Assembly (NCBI GenBank): GCA_015068055.1
Contig: SVLG01000022.1
Span: 1-29,426, forward strand
Length of the DNA: 29,426 nucleotides
From: Oscillospiraceae bacterium
GTDB taxonomy: Bacteria; Bacillota_A; Clostridia; Oscillospirales; Oscillospiraceae
Direction: 5' to 3'
Positions 13,330 through 28,243 of this stretch are shown here, one piece after another (position 1 is the stretch's first letter; each line of letters opens with the position of its first letter). The notes below the pieces were generated by a model. It saw only the letters and a list, made by a program, of their open reading frames with translations, was not told where the DNA came from and ran no database searches. The translations under genes and the position numbers were made by a program.

Positions 13330-13530
13330 ATGGCTTTTAAAGATAAGGAACAAGCGTCCAAATATAAAAATGACTTTGCACGCTCTGCTTATGACCGCAT
13401 TGGTATCACGCCCAGCAAAGAGCGCGGACAGGCGATTCGTGCGGCGGCGGCCAGAGCCAATCAGAGTGTAAACGCCTACATACTGCAGGCGGTGGAAGAA
13501 CGCATGAAGCGTGAAGAAAGCTCCCCTTGA
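13330..13530 (+). CDS. Small Arc/CopG-type ribbon-helix-helix protein
   Basis: 66 residues: MAFKDKEQASKYKNDFARSA, a short strand-like DRIGITPSK, then two helices RGQAIRAAAARANQSVNAYI and LQAVEERMKRE. The strand plus helix, helix, with SVNAYI as the second-helix start, is the usual Arc-like ribbon-helix-helix pattern of small DNA-binding proteins and antitoxins. No toxin gene is adjacent; the divergent neighbour is the DUF6809-like gene. GAGGTG lies 6 bases before the ATG. An extended -10 (TGGTATCAT) near 13277-13285 may serve it. The stop codon lies in the loop of the terminator. Confidence 0.7.
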   Translation: MAFKDKEQASKYKNDFARSAYDRIGITPSKERGQAIRAAAARANQSVNAYILQAVEERMKREESSP

Positions 13531-13548
13531 GAAAAGGGGAGCTTTCTT
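13514..13548. terminator. Terminator overlapping the ribbon-helix-helix gene end
   Basis: AAGAAAGCTCCCC (13514-13526) pairs with GGGGAGCTTTCTT (13536-13548). The TGA of the plus gene is in the loop. Symmetric flanks allow use by the minus operon ending at 13559 as well. Confidence 0.85.
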
Positions 13549-13558
13549 ATATCCATGA

Positions 13559-15157
13559 TCAGTACCACAAAAATCCCAGCAGGAAGATGCGGATGCACTG
13601 CTGACCCAGGGAGTAGCGCACCCGGACGGGGCACTCGCTGACAGCGCCGCCGTCGGAAGCGGTGCAGGTGATGACCGCGTTGCCGGGAGCCACGGCGGTG
13701 ACAAAGCCCTCGGCGTCCACGGTGACCACGCTCTCGTCGCTGCTCTGCCAGCTGTAGCTGCGCTCGGTGACATTGTCCGGCTGGATGTTGGCCCGGAGAA
13801 TGGCGGCGCCCTTGTAGTTGAGTTTCAGAGTGTCCTCGCTGAGGATCAGGGCGGTGGAGCGGACCAGCGCGGGGATGGTCTCCTCGGCCAGCAGTACGCC
13901 GCAGTCGCTGCAGAGCTGCTGCCGGATGCCCTCCTGCTCATAGAAGGGCTCCTGCGTTACTACCCAGTCTCCGGCCACATGGGGCGCGATCTCCCGGGTA
14001 TCCACCACCTTGCCGCAGAGCTGGCAGAGGCACCGCTCCTCACCGCTTTCCTCGAAGGTGGCCTCGGTGACGGTTTCCCAATCGCCGGGCACATGGCCGG
14101 GCTCGGTGAAGTCATCCGGATAGCTGTAACCGCAGTCGGAGCAGGCGTAGGTGGTAAAGCCCCAGTCGGTGCAGGTGGGTGCGGTGACAACGCTGCCGAG
14201 TTCGGTATTGTCACAGTCGTGTGGATAGAGGTCCCTGGTGTACTCGTAGACTTCCCGGCTTTCAAAGGTGGAGTCCAGGCGGTCCACGGACATAGTCCAG
14301 TGGAGGTTTTCGCCGCAGTCGGCTGCGCAGTAGGCCCGGCGGTCGGCATTGTCCTCAAAGAAGGTGATAAAGCCGCTGAGCTTGTTGGCGCTGCTGTAGA
14401 GGACAACAGAGCCGCCCTCATCGTTGTGCTGGTGGTGCATGCCCACCAGACCGCCGTCGTGGACATAGCCATGGCAGGAGGTGTAGCCCTCGATATGTAC
14501 GGTGCAGCCGTTGATGGAGCAGTAGCCCACGGCCAGAACGCCGCCGGTGAATTGCTCACACTTGCCGTCAAGCTTTTCGTCCACATGGATGAGCTCGGAC
14601 TTTACGCTGCAGCTTTTGAACTCCGCCGTGCCGAAGCCGGCGATGCCGCCCACGCCCACCATGGTACCGCCGCTGTGAAGCTCTACGCTGCCGTCCAGAG
14701 TACAGCCCTCAATGACGGCGTTCTCCACGTAGCCGGCCAGCAGGGCTGCAAAGCAGTCCTCGTCGGTCGTGACATGGATGCGGGCATTTTTCAGCGTCAG
14801 ATTTTTGACGGTGGCATCCTTGAGAACGGAAAACATGCCGGCAAAGACGCTGTCGTATTCCTTGTGGTTGCCGTCCACCGTGGTGGCTCTCTCGGCACCC
14901 ACTGTGTTTACGGACAGGTTATAGATGCAGTAGCCTGCGCCGTCCAGCGTGCCGGAAAAGGCCATGGGAGTCCAGTCCTCGCCGTCCATGTTGATGTTGG
15001 CGGCGAGAACATAGCTGGCTGTGGGGTCGTTGGCCATGGCGCGAAGGCCCTCGGCGTTGCGAATCTCGATGACATCGGGGGTATCGGCCAGCGCGGTCAG
15101 GCTCCATACCGGGAGCAGAGCCAGTATAAGCAGCAGGCAAAGCCATTTTTTTGTCAT
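13559..15157 (-). CDS. Secreted GLUG/Ig-like surface protein with CxxCG repeats
   Basis: 532 residues. A signal peptide (1-24, cleavage after ALA) leads into a region with GLUG-like beta-helix features (about 30-265: GTLDGAGYCIYNL, GGIAGFG, GGLVGM). Next come three spaced repeats ending in CxxCG (339-343, 378-382, 416-420), two of them after H-V-x-G-D-W. A bacterial Ig-like (Big_2) domain follows (about 435-515: SSDESVVTVDAEGFVTAVAP). The last 13 residues are hydrophobic (CIRIFLLGFLWY), with no LPxTG motif or S-layer homology domain. Third gene of an operon with two PIG-L paralogues, overlapping the previous stop by 4 bases. No enzyme motif is seen. Likely an adhesive, scaffold or substrate protein at the cell surface. 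Confidence 0.75.
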   Translation of the reverse strand: MTKKWLCLLLILALLPVWSLTALADTPDVIEIRNAEGLRAMANDPTASYVLAANINMDGEDWTPMAFSGTLDGAGYCIYNLSVNTVGAERATTVDGNHKEYDSVFAGMFSVLKDATVKNLTLKNARIHVTTDEDCFAALLAGYVENAVIEGCTLDGSVELHSGGTMVGVGGIAGFGTAEFKSCSVKSELIHVDEKLDGKCEQFTGGVLAVGYCSINGCTVHIEGYTSCHGYVHDGGLVGMHHQHNDEGGSVVLYSSANKLSGFITFFEDNADRRAYCAADCGENLHWTMSVDRLDSTFESREVYEYTRDLYPHDCDNTELGSVVTAPTCTDWGFTTYACSDCGYSYPDDFTEPGHVPGDWETVTEATFEESGEERCLCQLCGKVVDTREIAPHVAGDWVVTQEPFYEQEGIRQQLCSDCGVLLAEETIPALVRSTALILSEDTLKLNYKGAAILRANIQPDNVTERSYSWQSSDESVVTVDAEGFVTAVAPGNAVITCTASDGGAVSECPVRVRYSLGQQCIRIFLLGFLWY

Positions 15158-16626
15158 ATCGGTTTATCTCCTTCCTGTGTTTTTCGTCGCAGCGCGAAGG
15201 CAGCGGCCAGTGCGCCGCAGGCGATCACAGATACGGCGGCAATGGCAAGGGCCAGCTGCCGTTTTTCTTTTTCAATTTCCGCGGCAAGACGCGCCGCTTC
15301 TTCCTCGGCGGCCCGGCGCTCGGCCTCGGCCTGCCGTGCGGCTTCTTCCGCGGCCAGCCGCTCCGCTTCGGCCCGGCGCTCGGCCTCGGCCTCGGCGGCA
15401 AGGCGCGCTGCTTCTTCTTCGGCAGCCCGCTTTGCAGCATCGTAAAGCTCAATATTATCAAAGAGAGTATCGGTATTCCGGTCGTCCCCTACGGTGGAGT
15501 AATAGAGGCCGTAGTCACAGGAGGGGTAGCCTGCCAGCGCTGCGGCGGTGGGGCTGTCAAAAAGCCAGCTTCCGTAAAAGGGGACCTGTGAGGGGTGGCG
15601 GCGGAAGGCCTCCTTGGCAAGCTGAAAGGCGGTGGAGCCGCCGAACATCTCAAGAGGACTGTCAAAATCCAGCCGCACAGACTTTTCCGGGTGGTTGTGG
15701 ACATAGAGTTTTTGAGGCGTCCAGACACCGTAAAGCGCTGCGGTATCGGGATATGCCGTTTCGTCGCCGCTCAGCTGCCAGCCGGCCAGTGCCGTGAGGC
15801 AGTTGAGGATGTGAGCGCCGTGGCCATACTCGCCGTCTCTGGCATGGGTCACCACCACCTGCGGCTGAAAGCGCCGGAAAAGCTCCACCTGCCAGCCCTC
15901 AAAGTCGTTCCAGTAAACACCGCTGCCGTTATAGGCGCGGATGGTGTCGTTGTAGCCGATGTTTCCCATATCCCGGAAGGGGCCAAGAACGGGATAGTTT
16001 CGCAGACCGCAGCACCAGAGTCCGTCCAGCAGCTCGTTCATCCGGTCGGCGTGGTCATAGTGCTTGACGAAGTAGGCGGTCTGCACCCTTGCGCCCTGAG
16101 AGATGCACCAGGGGATGAGTCCGGCGAAAAAGAGCTGGTCATCATCGGAGTGGGTGGGGAGAAAGAGAACGTCAGCCTTGTCCCAGACCGGCTCCCAGTC
16201 CTGCACCCAGTCCTGCTTTTCCCCGGCGGAGAACACGAAGATATCACAGAGGTGGATGGGGGTATCAAAGCGGAGGGTCACTTCCGTGGAGCCGATGTCT
16301 CCCACATACTCATGGAGATAGCCGTACTGACCGCAGGGGCGTTCCTCGCCGTTTACCAGCAGCGTCCAGCGTTCCGGCGGTTCGGCAAACTCCAGATATA
16401 CCGCGCCGATCTCTTCCGCGGCGCGGATGTGCAGCTGGCCGGGGATGAGGCGAAGGCGGGAATAGCCATAGTCATCGTAGAGCTCCAGCTGCAGGGGCTG
16501 GTCGTTCCAGAGAAGATCGCAGTCGTGGCTGATGAGCCGCGCCTCATTCTCCGCCGCCTGCACGCCGATGCTCAGCGGGCAGAGCAGTAAAAGGACAACC
16601 AGCGCCGTTAAAAGACGCTTACTCAC
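15154..16626 (-). CDS. Extracytoplasmic PIG-L/LmbE-type deacetylase, membrane-anchored (paralogue 2)
   Basis: 490 residues. Signal peptide about 1-24 (ends VQAAE), an N-terminal beta-rich domain (about 28-145), then a PIG-L domain with PTHSDDDQLFF (H159, D161, D162) and VVTHARDGEYGHGAH (H261, H269, H272). These match the zinc and catalytic positions of LmbE/MshB-type N-acetyl-sugar deacetylases, with HSDDD replacing the usual HPDDE. After residue 395 comes an Ala/Glu/Arg coiled coil (396-457), then one membrane helix (458-479) and a short tail RRKTQEGDKPI. The topology puts the enzyme outside the membrane. It overlaps both neighbours by 4 bases. It is homologous to the gene upstream, including LYYSTVGDDRNTDTLFDN near 374-391. 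Substrate unknown; a wall, surface or host glycan is plausible. Confidence 0.82.
   Translation of the reverse strand: MSKRLLTALVVLLLLCPLSIGVQAAENEARLISHDCDLLWNDQPLQLELYDDYGYSRLRLIPGQLHIRAAEEIGAVYLEFAEPPERWTLLVNGEERPCGQYGYLHEYVGDIGSTEVTLRFDTPIHLCDIFVFSAGEKQDWVQDWEPVWDKADVLFLPTHSDDDQLFFAGLIPWCISQGARVQTAYFVKHYDHADRMNELLDGLWCCGLRNYPVLGPFRDMGNIGYNDTIRAYNGSGVYWNDFEGWQVELFRRFQPQVVVTHARDGEYGHGAHILNCLTALAGWQLSGDETAYPDTAALYGVWTPQKLYVHNHPEKSVRLDFDSPLEMFGGSTAFQLAKEAFRRHPSQVPFYGSWLFDSPTAAALAGYPSCDYGLYYSTVGDDRNTDTLFDNIELYDAAKRAAEEEAARLAAEAEAERRAEAERLAAEEAARQAEAERRAAEEEAARLAAEIEKEKRQLALAIAAVSVIACGALAAAFALRRKTQEGDKPI
15290..15450. repeat. GC-rich imperfect repeats encoding the Ala/Glu/Arg coiled coil
   Basis: Short imperfect repeats (GCGGC, CGGCCTCGGC, CGCTCGGC and similar) encode the alternating Ala/Glu/Arg coiled coil of the second PIG-L paralogue. 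A related run lies at about 16900-17095 in the first paralogue. The two runs could recombine. Confidence 0.6.
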
Positions 16627-18326
16627 TTCCTGTCGTTCTCCCGATAGAATTCTTCCAGACTGTAGTTTTCATCGGGACGGTAGGCGGGTTCTTCCTCGTA
16701 ATCCTCGTCCTCATATTCATACTCCTCCTCGTAGCGGGGTTTGCGCTGTCTGGGAGGGGCGTTCTTCCGTTTCTTTTTTCGGGGACGGCTCAGGGCCAGA
16801 ACCAGCAGCGCCACCACGGCAGCCACCAGCACCGGCACAGCCATGGCCGCAATCTGCAGGAGCTTGTCGCCCTTGAGTGCAGCATTATGTTCCTCCAGCC
16901 GCCGCTCCAGCGCCGCCTGGCGCTCCGCCTCTTCGGCCTGCTGGCGGGTGATGCGATCCAGCTCGTCCTGAGCGGCCTTCTCGGCGGCGAGGCGTTCCGC
17001 TTCCTCGGCGGCAAGGCGGGCGGCCTCGGCTTCGGCTGCGGCGCGCTCGGCTTCTTCCGCGGCAAGGCGGGCGGCCTCCTCGGCTTCCTTCTGCTCCCGG
17101 ACGGGCCAGAGGTCGAGATTATCGAAGAGTGTATCCGTGTTCACATCGTCGCCCACGGTGCTGTGGTAAAGACCGTAGCGGTTGACGGGGTTCTCGGTGA
17201 CCTCGCTGGCCAGCGTCTGCCCGTAAAGCCAGCTCATCTGACCGGGGTACCAGGTCTGGCTCACCTCATACATAAAGGCGTCCTGACCGACCTTGTAGGC
17301 GGTGCGGCCGTCGAACATGTCCAGCGGCGTATCGAAGTCCAGCACCACTTCCTTGTCCTGCTGCAGGTGGACATAGACCTTGGGCAGCTCCCACACGCCG
17401 TACTTTTCGGCGCTCTCGGGGTAGCTTTCGGGGTTGTTGGAATGCTCAATGGCATCGATGCAGAGCTGGGTATAGATGATGTGGCCGCCGTGGCCGTACT
17501 CGCCGTTGACCGCGTGGGTCACCACCACCTGAGGCTTATAGCGGCGATAGACCTCCACACAGCTGCCGATGAGTTCCTCCTCGGTGAAACCGGTATCGAT
17601 ATAGCTCTGGAGAGTGCTGTCCCGTTCCTCGTCCCGGTAGTGGCCCATCTCGGGATAATGGTGAATGCCGCTGGCCCAAAGACCGTCCAGCTGTTCGTGG
17701 ACGCGGTTGGGGTGGGTGTAGTGGTTGATGAAGTAGGCCACCTGAATGCTGGCACCCTTGCTGAGAACCCAGGGAATGAGGCCGCAGAAGGTGTACTGGT
17801 CATCGTCGGAGTGGCAGGCCATCAGCAGCACGTCCACCTTCTCGGGCTGTTCGGCCCAGTCGTGGACCCAGTCGGGACGGGCGCCTTCGGAGATGAAGTA
17901 GAGGTCGCTGATGCCGGTCTCCTCGTGGAAGGTCATGGTGAGCTCCGTGGCGGAGAAACCGCCCACATACTGCTGCTGCCAGCCGTTCTCCCCGCAGGTA
18001 CGCGTTTCACCGTTTACCTCCAGCGTCCAGGCGGCGGGGTATTCATCCCGGCCGGTCTGGTCAAAGCGGGCGTAGATGCCGCCGATGGGCGTGGCGCAAG
18101 TGACCTTGATGACGGCGCCTGCGGGTACGGTGCCGCGGGTAAAGTAGCTGTTGTCCTTCATATCGTTGCCGAGCACACCGCCGTTGCAGAGAATGGAACA
18201 CTGGGCGGTCAGGTCGGTGGCCTCGGCTTCCGTGCTTTCCGCTTCCGCAGCCGGTGTATCCGTGGCATAAACCGGCACGGTCAGAAGCATTGCCACGCAA
18301 AGGATCAGGGGGATAAGTCGTTTCAT
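16623..18326 (-). CDS. Extracytoplasmic PIG-L/LmbE-type deacetylase, membrane-anchored (paralogue 1, acidic tail)
   Basis: 567 residues. Signal peptide 1-21 (cleavage after VYA), a beta-rich N-domain (about 40-155), then a PIG-L domain with MACHSDDDQYTF (H172, D174, D175) and VVTHAVNGEYGHGGH (H271, H279, H282). A long Ala/Glu coiled coil (411-485) is followed by a membrane helix (488-512), a basic stop-transfer segment (RPRKKKRKN) and a cytoplasmic tail very rich in Glu, Asp and Tyr (531-567). First gene of the three-gene operon; GGAGG lies before the ATG. It resembles its downstream neighbour along the whole extracellular part, so it probably arose by tandem duplication. Known PIG-L enzymes remove acetyl from N-acetylglucosamine-type sugars; activity here is inferred. 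No clear consensus promoter was found upstream, although the gap is AT-rich. Confidence 0.82.
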   Translation of the reverse strand: MKRLIPLILCVAMLLTVPVYATDTPAAEAESTEAEATDLTAQCSILCNGGVLGNDMKDNSYFTRGTVPAGAVIKVTCATPIGGIYARFDQTGRDEYPAAWTLEVNGETRTCGENGWQQQYVGGFSATELTMTFHEETGISDLYFISEGARPDWVHDWAEQPEKVDVLLMACHSDDDQYTFCGLIPWVLSKGASIQVAYFINHYTHPNRVHEQLDGLWASGIHHYPEMGHYRDEERDSTLQSYIDTGFTEEELIGSCVEVYRRYKPQVVVTHAVNGEYGHGGHIIYTQLCIDAIEHSNNPESYPESAEKYGVWELPKVYVHLQQDKEVVLDFDTPLDMFDGRTAYKVGQDAFMYEVSQTWYPGQMSWLYGQTLASEVTENPVNRYGLYHSTVGDDVNTDTLFDNLDLWPVREQKEAEEAARLAAEEAERAAAEAEAARLAAEEAERLAAEKAAQDELDRITRQQAEEAERQAALERRLEEHNAALKGDKLLQIAAMAVPVLVAAVVALLVLALSRPRKKKRKNAPPRQRKPRYEEEYEYEDEDYEEEPAYRPDENYSLEEFYRENDRK

Positions 18327-18485
18327 AGGGGTCCTCCATATATGAAAATCGTGAGTGCATACTATAAGACACTATATTATAACACAGTATTTTGCCAAGA
18401 GCCAGATGTTTTTTCAAAAAGCACCGTTGAAAGAATTGGCAGCAGGGTGTAATATGAAGAAAACAACCATGAAAAGGAGACGGCT
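18327..18485. other. Divergent intergenic region, PIG-L operon / U32 gene
   Basis: This 159-base gap is AT-rich near 18360-18400, with several TATAAT- and TATAGT-like hexamers on the minus strand. None has a good -35 at 16-18 bases, except a weak TTGAAA...CAAAAT pair. The plus-strand promoter of the U32 gene is clear. The start site of the PIG-L operon cannot be fixed from sequence. Confidence 0.5.
18427..18455 (+). promoter_or_regulatory. Promoter of the U32 gene
   Basis: TTGAAA (18427-18432), 17-base spacer, TAATAT (18450-18455), 30 bases before the GTG start. Confidence 0.65.
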
Positions 18486-20516
18486 GTGAAGAAAGCAGAG
18501 ATACTGGCCCCTGCCGGGGCCATGGAACAGCTCTACGCTGCGGTGCGCTGCGGCGCAGATGCGGTGTATCTGGGTGCCACGGGCTTCAATGCCCGGCGCA
18601 ATGCCGCCAACTTCGATGAGGAAACTCTGCCGCAGGCGGTGAGCTACTGCCATGGTCGGGGTGTAAAGGTCCATGTGACGGTGAATACCCTCGTGATGGA
18701 CAGTGAAATGCGCCAGCTGGAGGAGACCGCGGAACTTCTGGCCATGAGCGGGGTGGACGCCGTCATCATTCAGGATATGGCTGTACTGGAACTTTTTAAA
18801 AAGCGCTACCCCGGTATTGAGCGCCATTGCTCTACCCAGGCCGCCGTACACAATGTGGACGGGGCCAAGCGGATGGAGGAGCTGGGCTTCCAGAACGTGG
18901 TGATGGCCCGGGAACTGACGCTGGAGGAAATGCGTGCCATCAGTGATGCGGTTAACATAAAAACAGAGGCCTTTGTCCACGGCGCCCATTGCATGGGCCT
19001 CTCCGGTGCCTGCTACCTTTCCGGCATGCTGGGAGGCCGCAGCGGCAACCGCGGCCTTTGCGCCCAGCCCTGCCGACTGGACTGGCGGGTGGGGAAAAAG
19101 GATTACGCCCTCTCTCTGAAGGACATGTCCCTGATCTCCGAACTTCGCCGGATGCAGGAGGCCGGAGTGAGCCTTTTCAAGATCGAGGGCCGCATGAAAC
19201 GCCCGGAATACGTGGCTGCAGCGGTTACCGCCTGTCGTCTGGCCCGGGAGGGGAAGGACTACGACGAGGACACTCTGCGTAAGGTTTTTTCCCGCAGCGG
19301 CTTCAGCGACGGCTATCTAACGGGCCGACGCACTGCGGATATGTACGGCAACCGCAGCAAGGAAGATGTGGTGGGTGCGGAGAAAGTTTTCAAGAATCTT
19401 CAGCAGCTATACAAGGCGGAAACGCCCCGGATTTTAGTTGACATAACTTTCAAGGCCCGCGAGGACGGAAGCTCTCTTACCCTTTCTGACGGGGAGCGCA
19501 GCATTACCGTGGAAGGGGAGACGCCCCAGCGGGCTATGAACCGGCCTCTGGATGAGGAGGGCGCCCGGAAGAACCTCTGCAAGCTGGGCGGCACGCCCTT
19601 TGGCCCCGGCGATTTTAAGGCGGAGATCGGCGAGGGACTCATGCTGCCGGTGTCGGCGCTCAACGCCCTGCGCCGTGAGGCGGCGGAGCAGCTTCTTCAG
19701 GAGCGCAGCCGCATTGTGCCCCATGAGCGTGTGGATGCAGAGATACCTGCGGCGGAGGCGCATACAGCCGGTGAGCAGGAGATATGGGCGCGGTTTTTCC
19801 GGGCAGAGCAGATCCCCGAACAGGAGGACTATGCCAAGGTGATCCTGCCTCTGAGCGGAATCGACGAGGGCGTTATCACCCGTTTTGGCCGCCGTCTCTG
19901 CGGCGAACTACCCGCCGTCTGCTTTCCGGAGGATGAGCCGGCGCTGGAAAAGAGTCTGGCTGCGCTCAGGGATAAGGGGCTTGAAGAAGTCATGGCGGAC
20001 AACGCCTACGGCATCGCGCTGGCCGGACGGCTGGGGCTGCGGATACGGGGCGGCTTCGGATTGAATATCCTCAACACCCGTGCCCTCTGCGCCTATGAGG
20101 AAATGGGGCTGGAGAGTGTGACGGTGAGTTTTGAGCTGGCTATGGGTAAGGTGAAGGCACTGGGCGGAAAGCTCCCCCGGGGGATCCTTGCGTATGGGCA
20201 TCTGCCGCTGATGCGCTGGCGCAACTGTCCGGTGAAAGCCTTTCAGGGCTGCGCCGCCTGCGGCGGCAGGGGTTCGCTTACCGACCGGCTGGGGCTGCGT
20301 TTTGATGTGGAGTGCGGGGACAAAAAGTTTTCCAGTCTTCTGAACAGCGTGCCCCTGCACATTGCCGATAGGGATCTCCGGGGACTGGATTACCTCCTGC
20401 TTTACTTTACCCGGGAGAGTGCGGCGGACTGCGCACACATTACGGAGGACTTCCGTCTCCGGCGAAAGAGTGAGGATAAGCGCACCGGCGGACTCTATTA
20501 CAGGGAACTCTTATAA
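18486..20516 (+). CDS. U32 family protein with C-terminal DUF3656-like region (RlhA-like)
   Basis: 676 residues from a GTG start with AAAGGAGA upstream. The N-terminus ILAPAGAMEQLYAAVRCGAD and the signature EAFVHGAHCMGLSGACYLS are diagnostic of U32. Four cysteines (C169, C176, C192, C196) are placed like the iron-sulfur ligands of RNA-hydroxylating U32 proteins. The long C-terminal half, ending near a CPVKAFQGCAACGG segment, fits the DUF3656 type. In E. coli the member of this size, RlhA, is needed for hydroxylation of 23S rRNA C2501; older annotations call the family collagenase-like peptidase. An rRNA-modification role is the best guess. Single-gene unit with promoter and terminator. Confidence 0.85.
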   Translation: MKKAEILAPAGAMEQLYAAVRCGADAVYLGATGFNARRNAANFDEETLPQAVSYCHGRGVKVHVTVNTLVMDSEMRQLEETAELLAMSGVDAVIIQDMAVLELFKKRYPGIERHCSTQAAVHNVDGAKRMEELGFQNVVMARELTLEEMRAISDAVNIKTEAFVHGAHCMGLSGACYLSGMLGGRSGNRGLCAQPCRLDWRVGKKDYALSLKDMSLISELRRMQEAGVSLFKIEGRMKRPEYVAAAVTACRLAREGKDYDEDTLRKVFSRSGFSDGYLTGRRTADMYGNRSKEDVVGAEKVFKNLQQLYKAETPRILVDITFKAREDGSSLTLSDGERSITVEGETPQRAMNRPLDEEGARKNLCKLGGTPFGPGDFKAEIGEGLMLPVSALNALRREAAEQLLQERSRIVPHERVDAEIPAAEAHTAGEQEIWARFFRAEQIPEQEDYAKVILPLSGIDEGVITRFGRRLCGELPAVCFPEDEPALEKSLAALRDKGLEEVMADNAYGIALAGRLGLRIRGGFGLNILNTRALCAYEEMGLESVTVSFELAMGKVKALGGKLPRGILAYGHLPLMRWRNCPVKAFQGCAACGGRGSLTDRLGLRFDVECGDKKFSSLLNSVPLHIADRDLRGLDYLLLYFTRESAADCAHITEDFRLRRKSEDKRTGGLYYRELL

Positions 20517-26991: not shown

Positions 26992-27020
26992 ATTATAGCC
27001 ACCTTACCTCAAATTGTCAA
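26992..27020 (-). promoter_or_regulatory. Consensus promoter of tRNA-Leu
   Basis: Minus strand TTGACA (27015-27020), 17-base spacer, TATAAT (26992-26997): a perfect sigma-A consensus. Its -35 box overlaps the stop codon of the GT-C-type gene at 27017-27019. Confidence 0.93.
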
Positions 27021-28243
27021 CCATTATTTTTCCTGTTTTTCGAAATTTTTTTCGATGCCTCCGGGAGGGAGGCGAGCATATACGCGCAAACCATTGCGGC
27101 CGCAAGGATCAGTGCCCAGCTTCCATAGCGCATGGGATGAAGATAACGCATCTTCAGATAGGCATGGTAGCCAAGCAGGGAGGCATAGGAGCAGAGAAAG
27201 GGAAGGGGGAGCAGGGGCAAAGCGGTCAGGGTCAGCAGAAAGGAGAGAATGTCCGCGCCGTAAAAATAGCGGTCATGCATGTGCGGGAGAAAGAGAGGGA
27301 CGCAGATTACCGTTAAGGTAAAGGCCGCCAGCAGTGCCCGGTTGTTGAGTCGCCGCCGCTTCATGCAAAGCCACCAGAGGAGGATGCAGCAGAAGCTGAA
27401 GGCCGCCGAGATACCAAGCCGGCCCAGCCGGACTTCATCTCCGCCGCCTTTGTAGAAGGCGTAGAGGGAAGGAGAGTTGTAGTTAAGGCCGCTGCCGATG
27501 CTGCCGGCCTGATCAAAGTAGAGGGTAATGGTATCCATGAAGGGATAACCTGCCAGCACCGCAGGAAGAACAGCCGCCACATAGGTGGCCGGAAAGATCC
27601 ACATATCCCGCCAGCGGATGCGCCCGGTGAAGAACAGTACAAAGAACACGGGCATGAAAAATACCGCCTGCAGTTTGAAGGAGAAAGAGAGGCCCATGAA
27701 AACCAGGGAGAGCTTTGGTCTGTTGTCAAGGGCTGCCCAGATGGCCCAGACGGCCAGAGCCACATAGACGCCGTCGCACTGGCCCCAGTAGGCGCCGTTC
27801 AGAATCACCGTGGGCAAGAGCAGCGTGCCGCAGAAGGCGGCAAGACGGAGGGCAGGCTTATCTGTATAGAGAGAAACGAGCCGCAGACCACCCCAGGCCA
27901 GCAGCACATCGAAGGCGATGGAGAGGAACTTGATGAGATGGAGATCGGAATAGTTCGTATAGGAGAAGGCGGCGAGGAAGTAGAGGTAGGGGAGGTTGTA
28001 GTTGCCGACACGGTGCCGCAATGCTTTCACGCCGCCGTATTGCCGGAAAAAGTCCACCCAGCGGGTGAGGAAGTTCTGGTAGTCCAGCGTCTCGTGGTCA
28101 AGACAGAGAAAACGCAGAGAAAAAGCCACTGCCAGCAGCGCGGCGGCACAGAGCCAGTGGAGCCTTGTTTTTAAAGTTTTTTCCTTATATAAAATAAAAA
28201 GACTTAATGCAAAGGCGGAGAGGAGAAAAAAGGCAGCAATCAT
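27017..28243 (-). CDS. GT-C-type polytopic membrane glycosyltransferase (Gpi18-like mannosyltransferase family)
   Basis: 408 residues with about ten hydrophobic segments. The first extracellular loop carries acidic residues after a membrane helix (RFLCLDHETLDYQNF, D49, D54), as in GT-C enzymes that use polyprenyl-phosphate sugars. LPHMHDRYFYGAD near residue 323 resembles the conserved H-x-R-Y motif of this group. I place it with the bacterial Gpi18-like mannosyltransferases (COG5542 type); the sugar and acceptor are unknown. AGGGAG precedes the ATG. A basic tail (KKISKNRKNN) ends the protein. Single gene divergent from rpoB. It could add sugars to surface polymers. Confidence 0.75.
   Translation of the reverse strand: MIAAFFLLSAFALSLFILYKEKTLKTRLHWLCAAALLAVAFSLRFLCLDHETLDYQNFLTRWVDFFRQYGGVKALRHRVGNYNLPYLYFLAAFSYTNYSDLHLIKFLSIAFDVLLAWGGLRLVSLYTDKPALRLAAFCGTLLLPTVILNGAYWGQCDGVYVALAVWAIWAALDNRPKLSLVFMGLSFSFKLQAVFFMPVFFVLFFTGRIRWRDMWIFPATYVAAVLPAVLAGYPFMDTITLYFDQAGSIGSGLNYNSPSLYAFYKGGGDEVRLGRLGISAAFSFCCILLWWLCMKRRRLNNRALLAAFTLTVICVPLFLPHMHDRYFYGADILSFLLTLTALPLLPLPFLCSYASLLGYHAYLKMRYLHPMRYGSWALILAAAMVCAYMLASLPEASKKISKNRKNNG

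Follow-up and report, generated by a model that had tools for sequence, protein, structure and literature searches.

Two putatively exported PIG-L proteins and a beta-helix partner from an Oscillospiraceae bacterium: probable de-N-acetylases of the cell's own envelope glycan

In the PIG-L/LmbE superfamily, MshB, Mca, and BshB are cytosolic enzymes that act on small thiol precursors. The current study concerns three minus-strand genes, A, B, and C, located on a 29,426-nucleotide stretch of an Oscillospiraceae bacterium (contig SVLG01000022.1 of GenBank assembly GCA_015068055.1; here called the window), two of which encode PIG-L proteins and the third a beta-helix protein. In contrast to the enzymes of the thiol pathways, the PIG-L domains of A and B are predicted to be exported, preceded by a CBM32-like domain and followed by a helix and a transmembrane (TM) segment, and the position of the proline in the MshB motif HPDD is mostly taken by S, G, or A in their family. 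The teicoplanin/A40926 deacetylases and diacetylchitobiose deacetylase share the catalytic fold of A and N-deacetylate sugars, but they belong to other pathways, match with lower Z scores (16.1 to 19.6), and are to our knowledge without export and anchoring. Closer in setting is Pig-L (CD23150) of Clostridioides difficile, a clostridial membrane-associated protein for which the title of the respective paper names biofilm and virulence effects (PMC12613277). As judged from its description, its predicted TM segment lies near the N terminus (~22 to 35), whereas those of A and B are C-terminal, and the text passages available mention no C-like partner (PMC12613277). Multicomponent transmembrane glycosylation, which combines a GT2 enzyme with a GtrA flippase and a GT-C enzyme, makes and flips lipid-linked sugars, including GlcNAc, for addition to wall polymers outside the membrane; the term deacetyl does not occur in the text of the review (PMC8035078). 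An exported PIG-L protein with a beta-helix partner was not described in the literature searched, i.e., titles and abstract openings, with most subscription journals outside its scope. The parts are of known kinds (PIG-L/CE14 fold, CBM32-like domain, GLUG-type beta-helix), and an exported PIG-L protein with a dedicated beta-helix partner would be a new combination of them.

From export signals, the PIG-L fold of A, conserved catalytic residues, the partnership of PIG-L and C, and the genomic proximity of GT2-GtrA and NAGPA genes to PIG-L in the wider family, all of which were computed directly, we infer the activity, the substrate, the role of C, and a division of labor: A and B are probably extracytoplasmic de-N-acetylases that act on a glycan of the cell's own envelope, and C is probably their dedicated partner.

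Gene A (16623..18326, minus strand, as all coordinates of A, B, and C) encodes a C-terminally membrane-anchored PIG-L protein of 567 amino acids (aa) with predicted export. The AlphaFold2 model (mean pLDDT [predicted local distance difference test] 84.6) comprises a beta-sandwich resembling CBM32, DOC, and F5-8C domains (residues 34 to 148, 17883..18227), the catalytic domain with its Rossmann-like PIG-L fold (residues 163 to 396, 17139..17840), and a long helix predicted to form a coiled coil (residues 407 to 480, 16887..17108). A C-terminal TM helix was identified by hydropathy at a place of low model confidence (residues 492 to 510, 16797..16853). Gene B (15154..16626, GTG start) encodes a second such protein of 490 aa, likewise with a C-terminal TM helix by hydropathy (residues 458 to 476, 15199..15255). 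The two share 41% identity and probably go back to an ancient duplication. An earlier note, based on the letters of this DNA, had named the lack of a metal site as a reason for refutation and suggested structure prediction; the models returned a PIG-L fold for A and a beta-helix for C, and the ligand residues are intact in A and B and in nearly all aligned relatives. The metal motif HxD1D2 plus H is represented in A by H172-x-D174-D175 (HSDDD, 17799..17813) and by the third ligand H282, which aligns with His147 of MshB and lies, together with Y277 and H279, in the motif GEYGHGGH (17481..17504); the equivalents in B are HSDDD (16138..16152) and GEYGHGAH (15811..15834). In an alignment of 122 rows, H172, D174, and D175 are kept in 120, 121, and 121 rows, respectively, and Y277, H279, and H282 in all 122.

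The best named family matches are MshB and Mca, and the superfamily contains amidases, which would fit surface amidases whose target is an N-acyl group of a non-sugar compound or a small molecule, just as mycothiol derivatives are the targets of Mca/MshB-like enzymes. The equivalog cutoffs of NCBIfam are missed by A for MshB (38.0 versus 224.35 bits) and BshB1 (18 versus 182.5 bits) and by B for Mca (36.7 versus 277.15 bits). We consider such amidases very improbable, since anchoring, the CBM32-like domain, the beta-helix fusions, and the glycan-gene neighbors described below favor a polymer.

Export of the PIG-L domains of A and B to the outside, as the earlier note had proposed, is supported by a signal peptide and a C-terminal TM helix with a basic flank, by lipobox-anchored relatives, and by the fusion of relatives to the secreted protein C. 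The C-terminal ~55 residues of A form a predicted cytoplasmic tail, first basic and then acidic. With loose patterns, 115 of 141 PIG-L proteins have a C-terminal TM segment without lipobox and 14 a lipobox without TM segment, at least one of the latter being false; the latter arrangement was also read in L131, L132, L133, and L135. An LPxTG-type motif is absent from A, B, and C.

Gene C (13559..15157) encodes a secreted protein of 532 aa (mean pLDDT 90.3) that folds, like GLUG and other beta-helix surface proteins, into a right-handed beta-helix (residues 27 to 306, 14240..15079) with the invariant polar residues D95, E201, H233, E268, R273/R274, Y276, and E283. It continues with Cys-rich beta repeats containing CxxC pairs (residues 320 to 428, 13874..14200), a Big_2 Ig-like domain (residues 432 to 517, 13607..13864), and a conserved hydrophobic tail ending in GFLWY (residues 516 to 532, 13562..13612), which may serve to anchor the protein in the membrane or wall. 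In contrast to the M26 IgA1 proteases, the zinc-protease motif HExxH is missing in all 121 C-family proteins, which rules out by sequence that C is a protease of this type. The search with C returned 1042 matches at E 1e-3, which may include proteins with partial similarity. A QWLIxILLFGWLWY-type hydrophobic tail often closes C-family proteins; it was found in 21 of 1608 called genes, all tagged as C and some fetched twice. The repeat, Ig, and tail part also matches other long open frames (G605, G545, G504, G662), which suggests that it might be a cassette common to other surface proteins.

The functional link between PIG-L and C postulated in the earlier note gained support from natural fusions and from co-occurrence. 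A homologue search starting from a fusion in genome G002 (L123 7743-9950, lipobox GLCAC) collected 322 proteins, six of which contain both domains and do so in either order. P0244, the query's own protein, and P0245 are lipoproteins with PIG-L followed by C; P0246 has the same order and a C-terminal TM segment; P0253, P0256, and P0313 have C followed by PIG-L and, as read, a C-terminal TM segment. In the tree, P0244 and P0245 fall into a branch with lipoproteins, P0246 is weakly placed, and the three fusions of reverse order form a clade (100/98) outside A and B. Most simply, the link would have arisen at least three times, the B-C operon included. In G002, the gene for the fusion and that for a leucine-rich-repeat lipoprotein (L123 6601-7746) share 4 bp.

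Co-occurrence was assessed in three families of 200 genomes each, whose centers G002, G013, and G014 had been picked because they bear PIG-L; the first was searched with single proteins and the others with profiles, and at most seven candidates were scored per genome. C was detected in 6 genomes and PIG-L in 21 (family of G002), the beta-helix of C in 3 and PIG-L in 9 (G013), and C in 3 and PIG-L in 8 (G014). All 12 genomes with C also hold PIG-L (9/9 minus the three centers), and the chance product is 9.5e-12, a value that ignores kinship and draft quality. Of the eight matched genomes in the family of G013, five were left out of the C count because their similarity is confined to the Cys-repeat/Ig/tail part (position 301 onward); the nine PIG-L genomes include none of these five. 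Both C and PIG-L are present in 9/9 genomes of the genus of G002, a sample that overlaps with the family in G002, G098, and G170. In the order of G002, scoring up to four candidates per genome detected C in 2/295 genomes at E 1e-30, which is weak evidence, and the match in one of the two (G481) is limited to positions 28 to 244. The tie is not mere linkage, because C and PIG-L lie on separate contigs in G627, G629, G675, and G856. In G214, which has four PIG-L matches, C is truncated at the end of one contig and a PIG-L gene lies at the end of another (contigs C133 and C178), so that the two might be real neighbors.

The earlier note had also asked whether the trio is kept as a unit and had named rare adjacency in relatives as a reason for refutation; for the full trio, adjacency was indeed not seen in the genomes examined, and conservation as a unit was rejected for them. 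A genome-wide scan with the protein P0001 alone confirmed no relative; with an alignment of A and B, 271 loci were confirmed, the best 80 of which were analyzed, with genes predicted by a codon-model gene caller and C next to PIG-L scored by tblastn. None of these 80 loci, some of which are cut by contig ends, contains A, B, and C together, and PIG-L and C are neighbors in two (L001, L002), each with a single PIG-L gene; a 1165-aa protein in L030 that matches the C profile at positions 391 to 487 only was excluded. In both loci a divergent U32 peptidase gene lies on the other side, as in the window, and C starts on the last base of PIG-L in L002 and 3 bases past its end in L001. A and B form sister clades in a single 13-row group (100/100), with the lone PIG-L genes of L001 and L002 placed inside the clade of B (100/99); it is therefore B and C that are shared in synteny, with A either lost from these loci or added. 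Tandem PIG-L pairs occur in L037, L039, L071, and G627 (G627:C9), and no C was found in L037, L039, and L071. The longest metagenome contigs coincide in size for homologues of A and B (8045 and 4335), B and C (330096 and 6980), and A and C (96364), which suggests candidate neighbors on a few further contigs. A chance assembly of surface genes, each acquired independently and without shared function, would account for the missing trio, the rarity of C beside PIG-L, and the separate contigs, but it is hardly compatible with six fusions in both orders and the co-occurrence in three families and in the genus of G002, and we judge it extremely improbable.

Evidence on the substrate comes from the gene neighbors of the wider PIG-L family. 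With L032 and L067 left out, since the gene caller missed PIG-L there, neighbors were counted in 78 loci, eight of which carry less than 2 kb downstream of PIG-L; identities were assigned by scanning one representative of each of four recurrent clusters. At least one of NAGPA (a phosphodiester glycosidase), a GT2-GtrA fusion, U13, and a PGA_cap-like protein is encoded within five genes of PIG-L in 28/78 loci, often with short gaps or 4-base overlaps. Within four genes of PIG-L there are 23 NAGPA, 14 GT2-GtrA (14/78 loci), and 18 U13 genes, and none of the three occurs among 520 genes farther away. U13 (L038 12109-13164 and relatives), which appears membrane-anchored and is without Pfam match, follows NAGPA in many PIG-L clusters. 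C itself lies two to three genes from a NAGPA-U13-GT2/GtrA cluster in four of eight loci with full-length C in the genus of G002 (L124, L127, L128, L129) and adjoins NAGPA in L140 from another family. P0248 and P0250 are lipoprotein PIG-L proteins with a C-terminal esterase-like domain, by reading in the latter and at 19.7 bits, below the cutoff of Pfam Esterase, in the former; a combined N- and O-deacylation is possible, and such a fusion fits a polymer with acyl groups.

These neighbors of the wider family make an envelope glycan of the cell itself a likelier substrate than mucin or glycans on C. Foraging on foreign glycans would mean that A and B deacetylate GalNAc or GlcNAc of mucin, chitin-derived, or plant-associated oligosaccharides and that C binds the foreign polymer. 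The long stalk, structural matches of the N-terminal domain of A that include CBM32 structures containing galactose or Tn antigen, and the gut or rumen named in the record titles of many relatives would suit it, but none of the four recurrent clusters scanned (NAGPA, GT2-GtrA, PGA_cap, and one without Pfam match) is degradative and the titles of some relatives (L006, L019, L025, L062; titles only) name no animal, so that we regard it as rather unlikely. Still less probable in our view is a deacetylation of GlcNAc or MurNAc in peptidoglycan against lysozyme, with C as peptidoglycan binder: the surface location, a stalk that could reach the wall, and an Ig/Cys-repeat partner directed to it are in agreement, but the peptidoglycan deacetylases known to us are CE4 enzymes and the association with GT2-GtrA and NAGPA would be unexpected.

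Several observations weigh against the envelope glycan as substrate or against the assignment of A, B, and C as such. The neighbor counts lack independence, since the profiles were made from the neighbors themselves and many loci share kinship (Fournierella, Parasporobacterium, and Mageeibacillus groups), and PIG-L is without any tagged partner in 49/80 loci. A profile search matched neither GT2-GtrA nor NAGPA among the called genes of the window, which thereby differs from multicomponent transmembrane glycosylation loci, and the nearest glycosyltransferase noticed is a GT87 enzyme ~9 kb from the trio. A and B stay below the gathering score of Pfam PIG-L (25.7 and 21.7 versus 28.2 bits), which is passed by the relatives P0246, P0248, P0253, P0313, and L132 and failed by P0245 and the L123 fusion. 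Moreover, CBM32-like domains are also found in host-glycan enzymes, the nearest folds to C are the beta-helices of IgA1 proteases and related proteins, and C contains no known catalytic motif.

On balance, we favor the envelope glycan. A and B would be metal-dependent de-N-acetylases of the PIG-L/LmbE (CE14) superfamily outside the membrane, held there by the C-terminal helix with the long helical stalk extending outward, and the CBM32-like domain may grip the glycan. With GT2 and GtrA genes beside PIG-L, an outward-facing enzyme would most simply deacetylate amino sugars of their product, i.e., N-acetyl groups would most likely be cleaved from amino-sugar residues in an envelope glycan of the cell itself, probably residues that were added outside the membrane via a polyprenyl-phosphate-sugar route. 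The resulting free amines would alter the surface charge. The beta-helix of C would act on the same glycan by binding or processing it, the Cys-repeat/Ig region and the hydrophobic tail would place it at the surface, and A and B may work on different positions or stages. More tentatively, we propose a widespread, undescribed module in Clostridia, consisting of a PIG-L protein with a membrane or lipid anchor, a GT2-GtrA exporter, NAGPA, and an accessory protein that is likewise anchored; in some lineages C, with its conserved polar site, would join them as an enzyme or a specificity subunit in its own right. Surface glycans with free amines can influence resistance to antimicrobial peptides, the binding of phages, and recognition by the host. 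If our reading holds, the PIG-L superfamily, so far described chiefly in small-molecule pathways and glycosylphosphatidylinositol synthesis, has an exported branch that tunes envelope-glycan charge in many Clostridia, the module is a PIG-L-based counterpart of the CE4 deacetylases of other cell-surface glycans, and a large set of uncharacterized beta-helix/Big_2 proteins gains a pathway. The fusions and the GT2-GtrA/NAGPA clusters provide a concrete gene list for joint testing.

With respect to the locus itself, the three open reading frames described in the earlier note and their 4-base overlaps (GTGA between A and B, ATGA between B and C) were recovered at the same positions. The trio looks like one transcription unit, because a promoter-like site (TTGGCA-16-TATAGT, 18371..18398, minus strand, consensus match only) precedes A and an intrinsic-terminator-like hairpin of 15 bp (13514..13548, minus strand, the pattern also fitting a terminator on the other strand) closely follows C; the folded 61 nucleotides reach -28.7 kcal/mol (z -6.8). 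PADLOC returned no match to defense systems, and the trio was rejected as such a system. Upstream of A, the U32 peptidase gene (18486-20516) is divergent from the trio. The GT87 membrane glycosyltransferase gene is located at 27017-28243 and possibly encodes an acceptor-side enzyme, and a gene for a VanY-type D-alanyl-D-alanine carboxypeptidase is present at 589-1479.
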